Below, piece by piece: positions 16,937 through 37,807 of a DNA stretch of 37,807 nt; the stretch's first letter is position 1; each line of letters opens with the position of its first letter. The stretch is from the NCBI GenBank assembly GCA_025058225.1, contig JANXEE010000015.1:1-37807 (forward strand), written 5' to 3'. Source of the DNA: Candidatus Calditenuaceae archaeon (GTDB lineage Archaea > Thermoproteota > Nitrososphaeria_A > Caldarchaeales > Calditenuaceae). The notes under the pieces are model-generated. The model saw nothing but the letters and a program-made list of their open reading frames with translations, was not told the DNA's origin and made no database searches. The position numbers and the translations under genes are program-made.

Positions 16937-16985
16937 GGCATGTCAGCAGCGTACCCGGTTAAAACCTTGTGAGAACGCTATCGCG

Positions 16986-17083
16986 TGCCCCGGGTGGGAC
17001 TTGAACCCACGACCTACCGGTCTCAAACCCTGAGTGGGCGCGGAGGGCTTCAGCCGGTCGCTCTCCCGCTGAGCTACCGGGGC
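16986..17083 (-). tRNA. trnF: tRNA-Phe (GAA) with a 26-nt intron
   Basis: The acceptor arms GCCCCGG / CCGGGGC, the D-arm GCTC...GAGC, the T-arm GTGGG-TTCAAGT-CCCAC and discriminator A form a complete cloverleaf; CCA is not encoded. The anticodon stem ACCGG/CCGGT encloses CT-GAA-G, followed by an extra 26 nt (17022-17047 on the plus strand) before A38. This places an intron at the canonical archaeal 37/38 position and gives anticodon GAA (Phe). The splicing endonuclease and RtcB/archease would mature it. A TATA-like CTTAAATCC lies about 25-30 nt upstream. Confidence 0.93.
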
Positions 17084-34708: not shown

Positions 34709-35050
34709 TCAGGAGTACTCCCGCCAGGTGTGTCCGCACTTCGTGCACCTGAAGAACTGCGTCATGGGCTCGTCCGCAGACCTCGTCTGAACGGTCCACC
34801 AATAGGCCTCCCTGTTCCCACACTGCGGGCAGACTACGTCGGTGGACTTGGGGTGAACCGATGACTCCTCGGCCGAGTCCTCCACCAATATGCCGGTCCT
34901 CTGTCTGCTCATCGGCTTGTTTGGGGATCGGAGCTTGATCTCGACGGTTCCGCCGACCTTCTTGTAGCCACATCGCTTGCAGACCAGCGCCACACCACCA
35001 CTCGCCCGCGCGGTCGTCATGAAGCTGCCGCACCTCGGACAGAACTCCAT
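34709..35050 (-). CDS. tfs: Transcription factor S (TFS, TFIIS-like)
   Basis: This 113-residue protein has an N-terminal zinc ribbon (CPRC...CKRC) and a C-terminal one (CPQC...CTKC) with the catalytic RSADEP loop that reaches the polymerase active site to trigger cleavage of backtracked RNA. Length is standard for archaeal TFS; the intact DE pair argues against a TFS4-type inhibitor. AAATATATG lies about 27 nt upstream of the ATG, a clear leaderless promoter. It is convergent with the HTH regulator (16-nt gap). Confidence 0.96.
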   Translation of the reverse strand: MEFCPRCGSFMTTARASGGVALVCKRCGYKKVGGTVEIKLRSPNKPMSRQRTGILVEDSAEESSVHPKSTDVVCPQCGNREAYWWTVQTRSADEPMTQFFRCTKCGHTWREYS

Positions 35051-35084: not shown

Positions 35085-35168
35085 TGCTTGCACCGCGAGT
35101 CGTCGGTCGCTGACTTTGCGTAAGTTTATCTTACCGGAGAGCCAGTTGGTCGGCGAAAGGCGTTGAGG

Positions 35169-36704
35169 ATGCATGCCAAAGGGAGGTTCGTCCTCAGCTC
35201 CCAACCAGCCGTTGACGTCGAGGGGCTCGGGAAGGTGTTAGGTGAAGTTAACGCGGCACTCTCTAAGGGTGTGTCGCCTGAGAGGGCCACAGAGGGTGCG
35301 AGGTTAATAAGGTTCGAGATCAGGGGCAACGAAGTCGCTTTCGAGGTCGAGTCCGGGAGCGCCGTCTGGGCAACCGACGCTGTCCTGAGAGCGAAGAACG
35401 CCATCGCCGAGGCCCTAGGGAGGTCCTACAGAGTGGGGGTTAGAGGGACCGTGGTGGACGAGCTGACGGTTCAGCTGGAGAAGGGCTTCGACCTTCGGAG
35501 GGCGGAGAAGGAACTCGAGGGTGTCGCTGCGGTGGAGGGGCAGGGTGGGGTGTTGATGGTGAGGTTCACCGGCCTAACCGAGAGGGAGCTCCAGGACAAG
35601 GTCGTCGAGAGGGCCCTGAGGAGGGTGAGGGTCGCTGCGGTGGCGGAGGAGATCGTTGTGCCTGCAACCTTCGGTACGGTTCTCAGGCAGGGCATCGAGA
35701 AGCCGCAGAAGGTGACCGAGGACATCGGTCAGGCCGCTGAAGCACGCGGGTGGATAAAGAGGTTCCCCGGAAGGGGTCAATGGATCTACTCACCTCCCAT
35801 GGCATCCCTCATCAGGTCCGTAGTTCAACTGATAATCGAGCGGGTCTGCGTCCCACTCGGTTTTCAGGAATGGGTCTTCCCGAGACTGCTGCCGATGGAG
35901 GTCTTCCAGAGGCTCTCCACCTACGTCGAGCACCTCCCGGAGGGGCTCTTTTACGTCTGTCCTCCGCCCAGAGACCCTGCAGCCTTCGCGGAGTTCAAGC
36001 GTGAGTACTCTCTTCGGAGGGAGCTGAGGGTCGACCTGCTGAGGGGCGCGCTGGAGGATCCGAGGTACGTGTTGGACGCGGTGCAGTGCCCGCCCTTCTA
36101 TCAGTTCTTCAGCCAAGAGTACGTCAAACTCGAGGACCTGCCGGTGAAGGCGTTCGACGTCATGGGAGGGTGGACTTGGCGCAACGAAGCGGGCGGGGTC
36201 GAGGGTATCGTCAGGACCAACGAGTTCATGAGGATGGAGATGGTCTTTCTGGCCTCACCTGAGGACGCCGTCGAGCTCAGGGACTCGGTCATAGATAGGG
36301 TCGTTGAGCTGGTAGACAAGGAGCTGGACCTCGAATGGCGGGTCGTCGCCGGTGCGCCGTTCTACCTCTCTCCCGAGGAGGCGAAGAAGAGGGTGATAGA
36401 CGTCTCTACCTCTGCGAAGATCCCCACACTCGACGTGGAAGTCTACATGGCCTACAGGGGCGAGAGGGAGAGGGCCGAGTGGCTTGAGATCACCGCAGCT
36501 ACTGTTCACAGAGACTTCTACGTTAACGCCTTCAGAATAAAAGAGGTGAAGGAGAGACCTATCTGGACCGGATGCGTCGGTAACGGAATCACGAGGTGGG
36601 CAGCTGCCGTTTTAGCGCGACACGGATTCGAGGTCGATGAATGGCCTAAGGCCATCAGGGATAGGATGAGGTACGTTCCGAGCGTCCCGAGGGTCGTGAG
36701 GTGA
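35169..36704 (+). CDS. serS: Seryl-tRNA synthetase, rare methanogen type
   Basis: This is a class II synthetase of about 511 residues that differs from the common bacterial-type SerRS: it lacks the N-terminal coiled-coil arm and instead has an alpha/beta N-terminal domain (1-165). The catalytic part has C307 (DAVQCPPFYQFF), a glutamate in TNEFMRMEMVF (352 or 357) and C469 (WTGCVGNGITRW), matching the Cys-Glu-Cys zinc set of Methanosarcina barkeri SerRS (C306, E355, C461), where the zinc binds the serine amino group. ATG 35169 is preferred over TTG 35163. GTTTATCTTA lies upstream. hmgA follows 6 nt downstream. Confidence 0.88.
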   Translation: MHAKGRFVLSSQPAVDVEGLGKVLGEVNAALSKGVSPERATEGARLIRFEIRGNEVAFEVESGSAVWATDAVLRAKNAIAEALGRSYRVGVRGTVVDELTVQLEKGFDLRRAEKELEGVAAVEGQGGVLMVRFTGLTERELQDKVVERALRRVRVAAVAEEIVVPATFGTVLRQGIEKPQKVTEDIGQAAEARGWIKRFPGRGQWIYSPPMASLIRSVVQLIIERVCVPLGFQEWVFPRLLPMEVFQRLSTYVEHLPEGLFYVCPPPRDPAAFAEFKREYSLRRELRVDLLRGALEDPRYVLDAVQCPPFYQFFSQEYVKLEDLPVKAFDVMGGWTWRNEAGGVEGIVRTNEFMRMEMVFLASPEDAVELRDSVIDRVVELVDKELDLEWRVVAGAPFYLSPEEAKKRVIDVSTSAKIPTLDVEVYMAYRGERERAEWLEITAATVHRDFYVNAFRIKEVKERPIWTGCVGNGITRWAAAVLARHGFEVDEWPKAIRDRMRYVPSVPRVVR

Positions 36705-36710
36705 CGTCGC

Positions 36711-37807
36711 GTGGGTGATGTGCGAGTCGTAGGTCTGGAGGACCTTCTCAGCGGAAGGGTGAAGCTTCACATGCTCGACGAGCTCGTGGGTGCGAGGGAG
36801 GCGACACGGCTCAGAAGGAAGTACCTCGAGCAGCAGGCTGGGATTGAGCTCTCACAGCTCGATGTCGACCTGCCATACGAAGGCGTGGTGGGCCGCAACT
36901 GCGAGAACACGATAGGCGGTGTCACGATACCGTTGGGCGTGGCCGGACCGCTCCCGATCGAAGGCGAGCACTTCAGGGGGAGCACCTACGTACCTTTAGC
37001 CACAACCGAGGGCGCCCTAGTTGCGACCGTCAACAGGGGAGCAGCCGCGATAAGGTCCTCTGGAGCAGTCAAGGTGAGGGTCCTAGATGACAAGATGACT
37101 AGAGCCCCTGTCCTCGAGACGCCGGGGGTGGAGTGGAGCTTCAGGCTCACCAAGTGGGTCGAGCAGAACTTCCAGCTCCTCCGTGAGGCGTTCAGGTCCG
37201 CAACCAATCACGGCGACCTCAGGGGAATCAAGCCGTTCGTCGCAGGGAAGTTCGTCTTCCTCAGGATGGAGGCCACAACTGGTGACGCGATGGGCATGAA
37301 CATGGTCACCAAGGCCGCAGAGCGCGTGGTGGAGGAGGTCGTCTCGAGGCTCGATTGGGTGAAGCACGTATCCCTCAGCGGCAACCTCTGCACCGACAAG
37401 AAACCCGCAGCGGTCAACTGGGTAATGGGTCGTGGCAAGACCGTATCGGCCGAGGCCGTCATCAAGCGAGACGTAGTGGGTTCCGTGCTGAAGACGACGC
37501 CTGAGGCCGTGATGAAGGTCGTCTCGGCGAAGCTCTACGTCGGGTCCGCGCTCGCTGGGGCGCTCGGAGGCTTCAACGCCCACGTAGCGAACGTGATAGC
37601 TGCGGTCTTCATCGCCACGGGTCAGGACTTAGCGCAGGTCGTCGAGTCGAGCGAGTCGATCACCTACGCCGACATCACCCCAGCCGGAGACCTCTACTTC
37701 AGCCTCACCATCCCTAGCCTCGAGGTCGGTACCGTGGGTGGAGGGACGTGGCTACCCGCTCAACGCGCTGCACTCTCAATAATGGGTGTGGCCGGGCCCG
37801 GTGACCC
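36711..37807 (+). CDS. hmgA: HMG-CoA reductase (3' end beyond window)
   Basis: The GTG start at 36711 opens a frame that continues past the window edge (365 codons seen, class I length about 410). Signatures: ENTIGGVTIPLGVAGPL, the catalytic TTEGALVATVNRG (Glu), GDAMGMNMVTKA (the NADPH/CoA site), SGNLCTDKKPAAVNW (Lys) and GGFNAHVANVIAAVFIATGQDLAQ (Asp). It reduces HMG-CoA to mevalonate for isoprenoid lipids. There is no membrane anchor at the N-terminus, as usual in archaea. It is not in the ORF track because it has no stop in the window. It probably shares a transcript with serS. Confidence 0.96.
   Translation, partial: MGDVRVVGLEDLLSGRVKLHMLDELVGAREATRLRRKYLEQQAGIELSQLDVDLPYEGVVGRNCENTIGGVTIPLGVAGPLPIEGEHFRGSTYVPLATTEGALVATVNRGAAAIRSSGAVKVRVLDDKMTRAPVLETPGVEWSFRLTKWVEQNFQLLREAFRSATNHGDLRGIKPFVAGKFVFLRMEATTGDAMGMNMVTKAAERVVEEVVSRLDWVKHVSLSGNLCTDKKPAAVNWVMGRGKTVSAEAVIKRDVVGSVLKTTPEAVMKVVSAKLYVGSALAGALGGFNAHVANVIAAVFIATGQDLAQVVESSESITYADITPAGDLYFSLTIPSLEVGTVGGGTWLPAQRAALSIMGVAGPGD

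Follow-up and report, generated by a model that had tools for sequence, protein, structure and literature searches.

A serS gene at positions 35,169 to 36,704 (+) of the window, the whole 37,807-nucleotide stretch of DNA analysed here, raises a question of origin. Its product is the type-2 (rare, methanogenic-type) seryl-tRNA synthetase (SerRS), and its host belongs to Calditenuaceae, a family of Caldarchaeales (the former Aigarchaeota). The rare form was described from euryarchaeal methanogens in 2011 and again in 2015 (PMC3191353, PMC4427996), the later paper adding at least one Thermoplasmatales-related lineage, and a 2024 review called it "confined only to methanogenic archaea" (PMC10817482). 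Our explanation, in which we have good confidence, is that the gene encodes a working, probably the only, SerRS of the host, that it is a TACK-archaeal inheritance not derived from methanogens, and that it is interchangeable with the common form of the enzyme.

The serS gene and its product

The gene is single and intact. The open frame runs from 35,163 to 36,704 (+); the start is an in-frame ATG at 35,169, with a TTG at 35,163 as an alternative start, and the stop is the TGA at 36,702–36,704. A frame of 939 residues was discarded because this TGA ends the frame and the HMG-CoA reductase gene comes next in the same frame. The 511-residue product was searched against the NCBIfam profiles and matched NF002120 with 463.5 bits over positions 9–515 of 518 and TIGR00415 (serS_MJ) with 407 bits over positions 24–512 of 518. 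Both scores are under the curated equivalog cut-offs, 611 and 489.55, respectively. The N-terminal tRNA-binding domain, PF18490 (tRNA_bind_4), covers residues 2–154 (35,172–35,630, +; E 2e-27, 96.5 bits). The class II catalytic core, PF00587, covers residues 298–484 (36,060–36,620, +), and its motif 2 Arg338 and motif 3 Arg476 are invariant in 88 of 88 aligned type-2 sequences. Searched against PDB sequences, the product matched two type-2 SerRSs, 3w3s from M. kandleri (1.4e-92) and 2cim from M. barkeri (4.8e-76). The common SerRS, in contrast, has no PF18490 domain and carries a coiled-coil arm in its place. A common-type identity was rejected for the window protein, which scored 27.8 bits with TIGR00414, where the cut-off is 301.65, and had no match to PF02403.

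Alignment with the M. barkeri enzyme gives three predicted zinc ligands, Cys307 (codon 36,087–36,089), Glu357 (36,237–36,239) and Cys469 (36,573–36,575; all +), which correspond to Cys306, Glu355 and Cys461 of M. barkeri. This Cys/Glu/Cys set is invariant in all 88 type-2 sequences. The cysteine of the YVC motif (residue 264) had been considered as a ligand and was dropped, as the M. barkeri numbering points to Cys307. An AlphaFold model computed from a 30-sequence input had a mean pLDDT of 87.3 and a pTM of 0.66, and its N-domain was mixed alpha/beta without a coiled coil. The nine best Foldseek matches of the model in the PDB were all type-2 SerRSs, the closest being 3w3s and 2cja. The TM-scores were moderate (0.64–0.78 by query length), which would fit two domains that are arranged differently relative to each other. 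The preliminary description had assigned the protein to the methanogen-type class with a Cys-Glu-Cys zinc set and no coiled-coil arm. The profiles, PF18490, the PDB matches and the model agree with the class, the alignment agrees with the zinc set, and the missing PF02403 and the alpha/beta N-domain agree with the absence of the arm.

The window protein was compared with the type-2 SerRSs of methanogens (M. barkeri 2cim/2cja/2cjb, M. kandleri 3w3s and M. jannaschii serS). The domain order, the N-domain, the Cys/Glu/Cys site, the motif 2 and 3 arginines and the overall fold are the same, at 35% identity to M. kandleri and about 28% to M. barkeri in structure alignments. The loop that holds Trp396 and Gln400 in M. 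barkeri reads PFYLSP in the window protein, with Phe as in M. kandleri. On the other hand, the window protein lies in a separate TACK clade and below the NCBIfam cut-offs, and its host has no detected mcrA. The serine mechanism at zinc has been established for M. barkeri SerRS (PMC7373986). By homology to the solved enzymes, serine would displace a zinc-bound water, the class II core would adenylate it, and tRNA-Ser, bound through the N-domain, would then receive it. We infer catalysis and zinc binding, and the product would be the cell's working SerRS of the type-2 kind.

The 3-hydroxy-3-methylglutaryl-CoA (HMG-CoA) reductase gene (36,711–37,807, +) lies 6 bases downstream of serS, passes the window end and stops at contig position 37,943. 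The two genes are probably co-transcribed. The same order, with type-2 serS directly upstream of HMG-CoA reductase, is repeated in two further genomes of the genus (G001 and G003). The upstream neighbour is a divergent gene for transcription factor S (TFS_arch; 34,709–35,050, −). Elsewhere in the window, an intron-containing tRNA-Phe(GAA) gene was found at 16,985–17,083 (−) by an Rfam RF00005 covariance-model search and by intron-aware ARAGORN; a default ARAGORN scan of the window reported no tRNA.

Two forms of SerRS in Caldarchaeales

The closest sequences to the window SerRS come from the Calditenuaceae MAG SKYB91, at 91% identity, and from Candidatus Calditenuis fumarioli, at 75%. Pelearchaeum, Geocrenenecus, Wolframiiraptor and Benthortus are further Caldarchaeales with the type-2 form. 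Both forms of SerRS occur, in different genomes, within each of three families of the order. In Calditenuaceae (f1), the type-2 form was found in g1 and the common form in g3 and g4. In Wolframiiraptoraceae (f3), g10, g12, g13 and g14 carry the type-2 form and g6 the common one, and in Caldarchaeaceae (f4) the type-2 form belongs to g8 and g11 and the common form to g7 and g9. On the RpoB tree, this pattern takes at least three changes of SerRS type within Caldarchaeales, even when well-supported branches only are trusted. The common SerRS (TIGR00414/PF02403), which is the bacterial, archaeal and eukaryotic enzyme found here in Calditenuaceae g3/g4 and Caldarchaeum, carries out the same reaction on the same tRNA-Ser and substitutes for the type-2 form genome by genome. 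In the tree of the common form, the sequences of Calditenuaceae and Caldarchaeaceae fall in one clade (100/99) and those of f3 g6 in another (100/99). On this grouping, both forms look native to Caldarchaeales.

The genomic positions of the two genes, with neighbour names assigned by NCBIfam, bear on the replacement. In Caldarchaeaceae, type-2 and common serS are both placed between Nnr (NAD(P)HX epimerase) and serine hydroxymethyltransferase (SHMT); they are oppositely oriented within this slot, and in g7 and g9 a few extra genes separate the common serS from SHMT. Common serS also adjoins SHMT in f1 g3 and f3 g6, where a YchF-type GTPase lies on the other side. In the type-2 genomes of Wolframiiraptoraceae (g10, g13 and g14), the gap between SHMT and the GTPase is mostly 75–300 bases, up to about 730 in G026, and holds no serS; the type-2 gene is located away from this junction. 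An empty junction is what would be expected after loss of the common gene following, or together with, establishment of the type-2 gene. The best SHMT match in the Wolframiiraptor-like f3 g12 and in f2, another family of Caldarchaeales, was 41–46% identical to the query, and that in other Caldarchaeales 66–75%; SHMT may also have been replaced in those lineages. In the window's family, the common serS of g4 lies three genes downstream of HMG-CoA reductase (HMGR, aIF2-alpha, HD protein, serS). The recurrence of HMG-CoA reductase near serS is suggestive, and a weaker coincidence than the other synteny. Class I HMG-CoA reductase itself was found at E ≤ 1e-40 in most Calditenuaceae genomes, in f2 and in f4 g8/g11, and in none of the Wolframiiraptoraceae genomes nor in f4 g7/g9, many of them more than 90% complete. 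It may be a further gene that exists in two interchangeable versions in the order.

A main tree of the type-2 form was built from 72 sequences by maximum likelihood (LG+C20 PMSF, unrooted). The window sequence falls in a Caldarchaeales clade formed by Calditenuaceae, Wolframiiraptoraceae and Caldarchaeaceae (100/99), which was retained in a quick 88-row tree. Within it, Calditenuaceae groups with Wolframiiraptoraceae apart from Caldarchaeaceae, with support of only 97/82, and this order matches that of the RpoB tree (88/93). We infer the order of gain and loss from these trees and positions. The type-2 gene would have been present in the ancestor of the three families, or have moved only among them; the two forms would be interchangeable, each lineage having kept one and lost the other. 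The other reading with appreciable weight, which we consider possible though short of an even chance, is that the two genes behave as homeoalleles. The type-2 gene would then have been unfixed in the ancestor of Caldarchaeales and repeatedly exchanged within the order, displacing or displaced by the common form, a pattern described for SerRS in methanogens (PMC3191353). The mutually exclusive patchwork, which reaches the genus level inside all three families, speaks for it. The type-2 loci also differ among the three families and are less conserved than the SHMT-adjacent common serS, and such differing loci could reflect repeated acquisition. However, the type-2 sequences cluster by family, and the families follow the RpoB order. 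In Wolframiiraptoraceae, moreover, g10 and g12 share the PCNA-serS-F10 locus, whose serS-F10 side is also conserved in g14.

The family f2 brings a foreign lineage into the order, again a point for exchange. Two of its genomes, G012 and G015 (L131 and L132), have very divergent type-2 SerRSs on long branches with f10, f19 and M. barkeri, and the AU test rejects their union with the other Caldarchaeales (p 1.9e-5). They represent a second, independent type-2 lineage in the same order, to be read with caution given the long branch. This lineage is clearly distinct; therefore, at least one transfer happened.

The tRNA substrate is consistent with a ready exchange. G73, G30:C40 and G1:C72 are listed as identity elements for recognition by type-2 SerRS (PMC9976931). 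The host tRNA-Ser(TGA) has all three together with a long variable arm, and so do all five tRNA-Ser genes compared, from type-2 genomes (one from the host, two from G001) and from common-type genomes (one each from G005 and G006). The tRNA-Ser(GCT) genes of G001 (type-2) and G005 (common) have near-identical anticodon and variable arms. No co-change of tRNA-Ser with SerRS type was seen among these five genes only, and an unchanged tRNA-Ser fits an easy enzyme replacement.

Distribution and origin of the type-2 form

Among 398 evenly drawn Thermoproteota genomes, the type-2 form was found in 64, the common form in 312 and both in none. About 50 genomes with both would be expected under independence (Fisher p 2e-55). 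Neither form was detected at the thresholds used in 22 genomes, and several among those listed are incomplete. The host genome itself consists of 33 contigs of 1.17 Mb in total and is estimated to be 73% complete. The search for a bacterial-type serS that the preliminary description proposed gave none in this 73%-complete genome, no PF02403 domain being detected. It is improbable that a common-type serS lies in the unsequenced 27% and that the type-2 gene is accessory or has another job. The incompleteness of the genome leaves room for such a gene, and M. barkeri has both forms (PMC3191353, PMC9976931). Nevertheless, the common form was present in none of the 64 type-2 genomes, including G001, which belongs to the host's genus and is 91% complete. 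Type-2 serS thus probably encodes the sole SerRS of the organism.

The claim of a non-methanogenic host also stood, mcrA being found neither in the host genome (73% complete) nor in its order Caldarchaeales. Because the genome is only 73% complete, the absences of mcrA and of common serS rest mainly on the relatives. Across Thermoproteota, mcrA was undetected in 59 of the 64 type-2 genomes. It was present in 27 of the 398, comprising 5 with the type-2 form (families f33 and f36), 19 with the common form (all f8) and 3 with neither. There was no association between mcrA and the type-2 form within Thermoproteota (5/64 versus 19/312, p 0.58), and the SerRS type in this phylum is independent of methanogenesis.

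The type-2 form is also found further afield. In 84,980 species genomes that were scanned, 343 type-2 loci were found, and the best 80 of these include Caldarchaeales, Nezhaarchaeota, Bathyarchaeota, Hecatellales, Hadarchaeota, Methanoliparia and classical methanogens. The type-2 SerRSs of other Caldarchaeales, Nezhaarchaeota, Bathyarchaeia and Hadarchaeota are of the same family as the window protein (about 36–91% identical), although gene neighbourhoods in these TACK and Hadarchaeota lineages are lineage-specific. The NF002120 cut-off of 611 was reached by none of the 121 relatives tested and by only 5 of the 398 Thermoproteota, and the relatives with the gene have the same structural features as the window protein despite their lower scores. 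The cut-off was probably shaped by training sequences from methanogens, not by function; it is a naming threshold and not a defining feature. That nearly all Thermoproteota miss it is a plausible reason why the wider presence was overlooked.

In the 72-row tree, a single clan (100/99) unites the methanogens Methanopyri, Methanobacteria, Methanococci and Methanoliparia, and the window sequence lies outside it. The Caldarchaeales clade sits instead in a separate clan of 28 rows (100/100) with Nezhaarchaeota, Guaymas Thermoprotei, Bathyarchaeota and one record labelled Aenigmatarchaeota (L080). That record, whose SerRS groups with TACK sequences, could be mis-binned or a transfer. M. barkeri is placed on a long branch outside the methanogen clan, near f10, f19 and f2, and in the quick 88-row tree the TACK families f36, f49 and f60 also join the methanogen group, which is less firmly supported there (93). 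That Calditenuaceae recently received serS horizontally from a methanogen would suit an enzyme type described from methanogens in a host that is not one. Such a transfer is nonetheless very improbable, as all of the closest relatives belong to TACK archaea and the methanogens form their own clan. The AU test rejects the union of the window's genus with methanogens (p 3.8e-51), which refutes the transfer under the model used, and likewise that of all three Caldarchaeales families with methanogens (p 2.6e-13). The phylogeny proposed in the preliminary description therefore places the protein within the type-2 family and outside the methanogen clan. Nor is the enzyme a local oddity, with 64 of 398 Thermoproteota carrying the form. 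Likewise, of the deeper ancestry or transfer then suggested, transfer from methanogens is rejected and an older TACK presence with repeated replacement is supported. Finally, PRK07080 and PDB 3mey give weaker matches, which point to amino acid:[carrier protein] ligases, relatives of class II SerRS without tRNA charging. It is hardly credible that the window protein is one of these, since PRK07080 reaches 67 bits against a cut-off of 357 over residues 296–501 only, such proteins have about 320–346 residues and match the catalytic half only while the window protein has a full tRNA-binding domain, and no other SerRS was found in the host genome.

Implications for SerRS evolution

The protein itself belongs to a known enzyme type. 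What appears to be new is the breadth of its distribution, its strict exclusivity with the common form and the same-slot replacement. In open-access texts other than preprints, no report of type-2 SerRS across TACK archaea was found, and none on the aminoacyl-tRNA synthetases of Calditenuis. AARS Online labels the family SerRS-A, archaeal-like; given this label, the wider presence may already be known to database curators.

In the 2011 and 2015 papers, the type-2 gene was argued to have been transferred from a lineage older than LUCA and to have survived in methanogens (PMC3191353, PMC4427996), an argument that is underlain by a methanogen-only distribution. The type-2 form occurs across TACK archaea and Hadarchaeota, is exclusive with the common form and is independent of mcrA within Thermoproteota, and the premise of methanogen restriction is thereby removed. 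As a tentative and rather doubtful extension, type-2 SerRS might be an old archaeal enzyme that predates the split of TACK and euryarchaeal lineages, not a pre-LUCA import. The common form would have repeatedly displaced it, and the methanogen restriction would be an artefact of sampling and annotation. The type-2 trees are unrooted and silent on the archaeal ancestor, in which the presence of the type-2 form is now a testable question. Because either form, same-slot replacements and empty sites exist among close relatives, Caldarchaeales is a natural test case for the non-orthologous swap of an essential translation enzyme.
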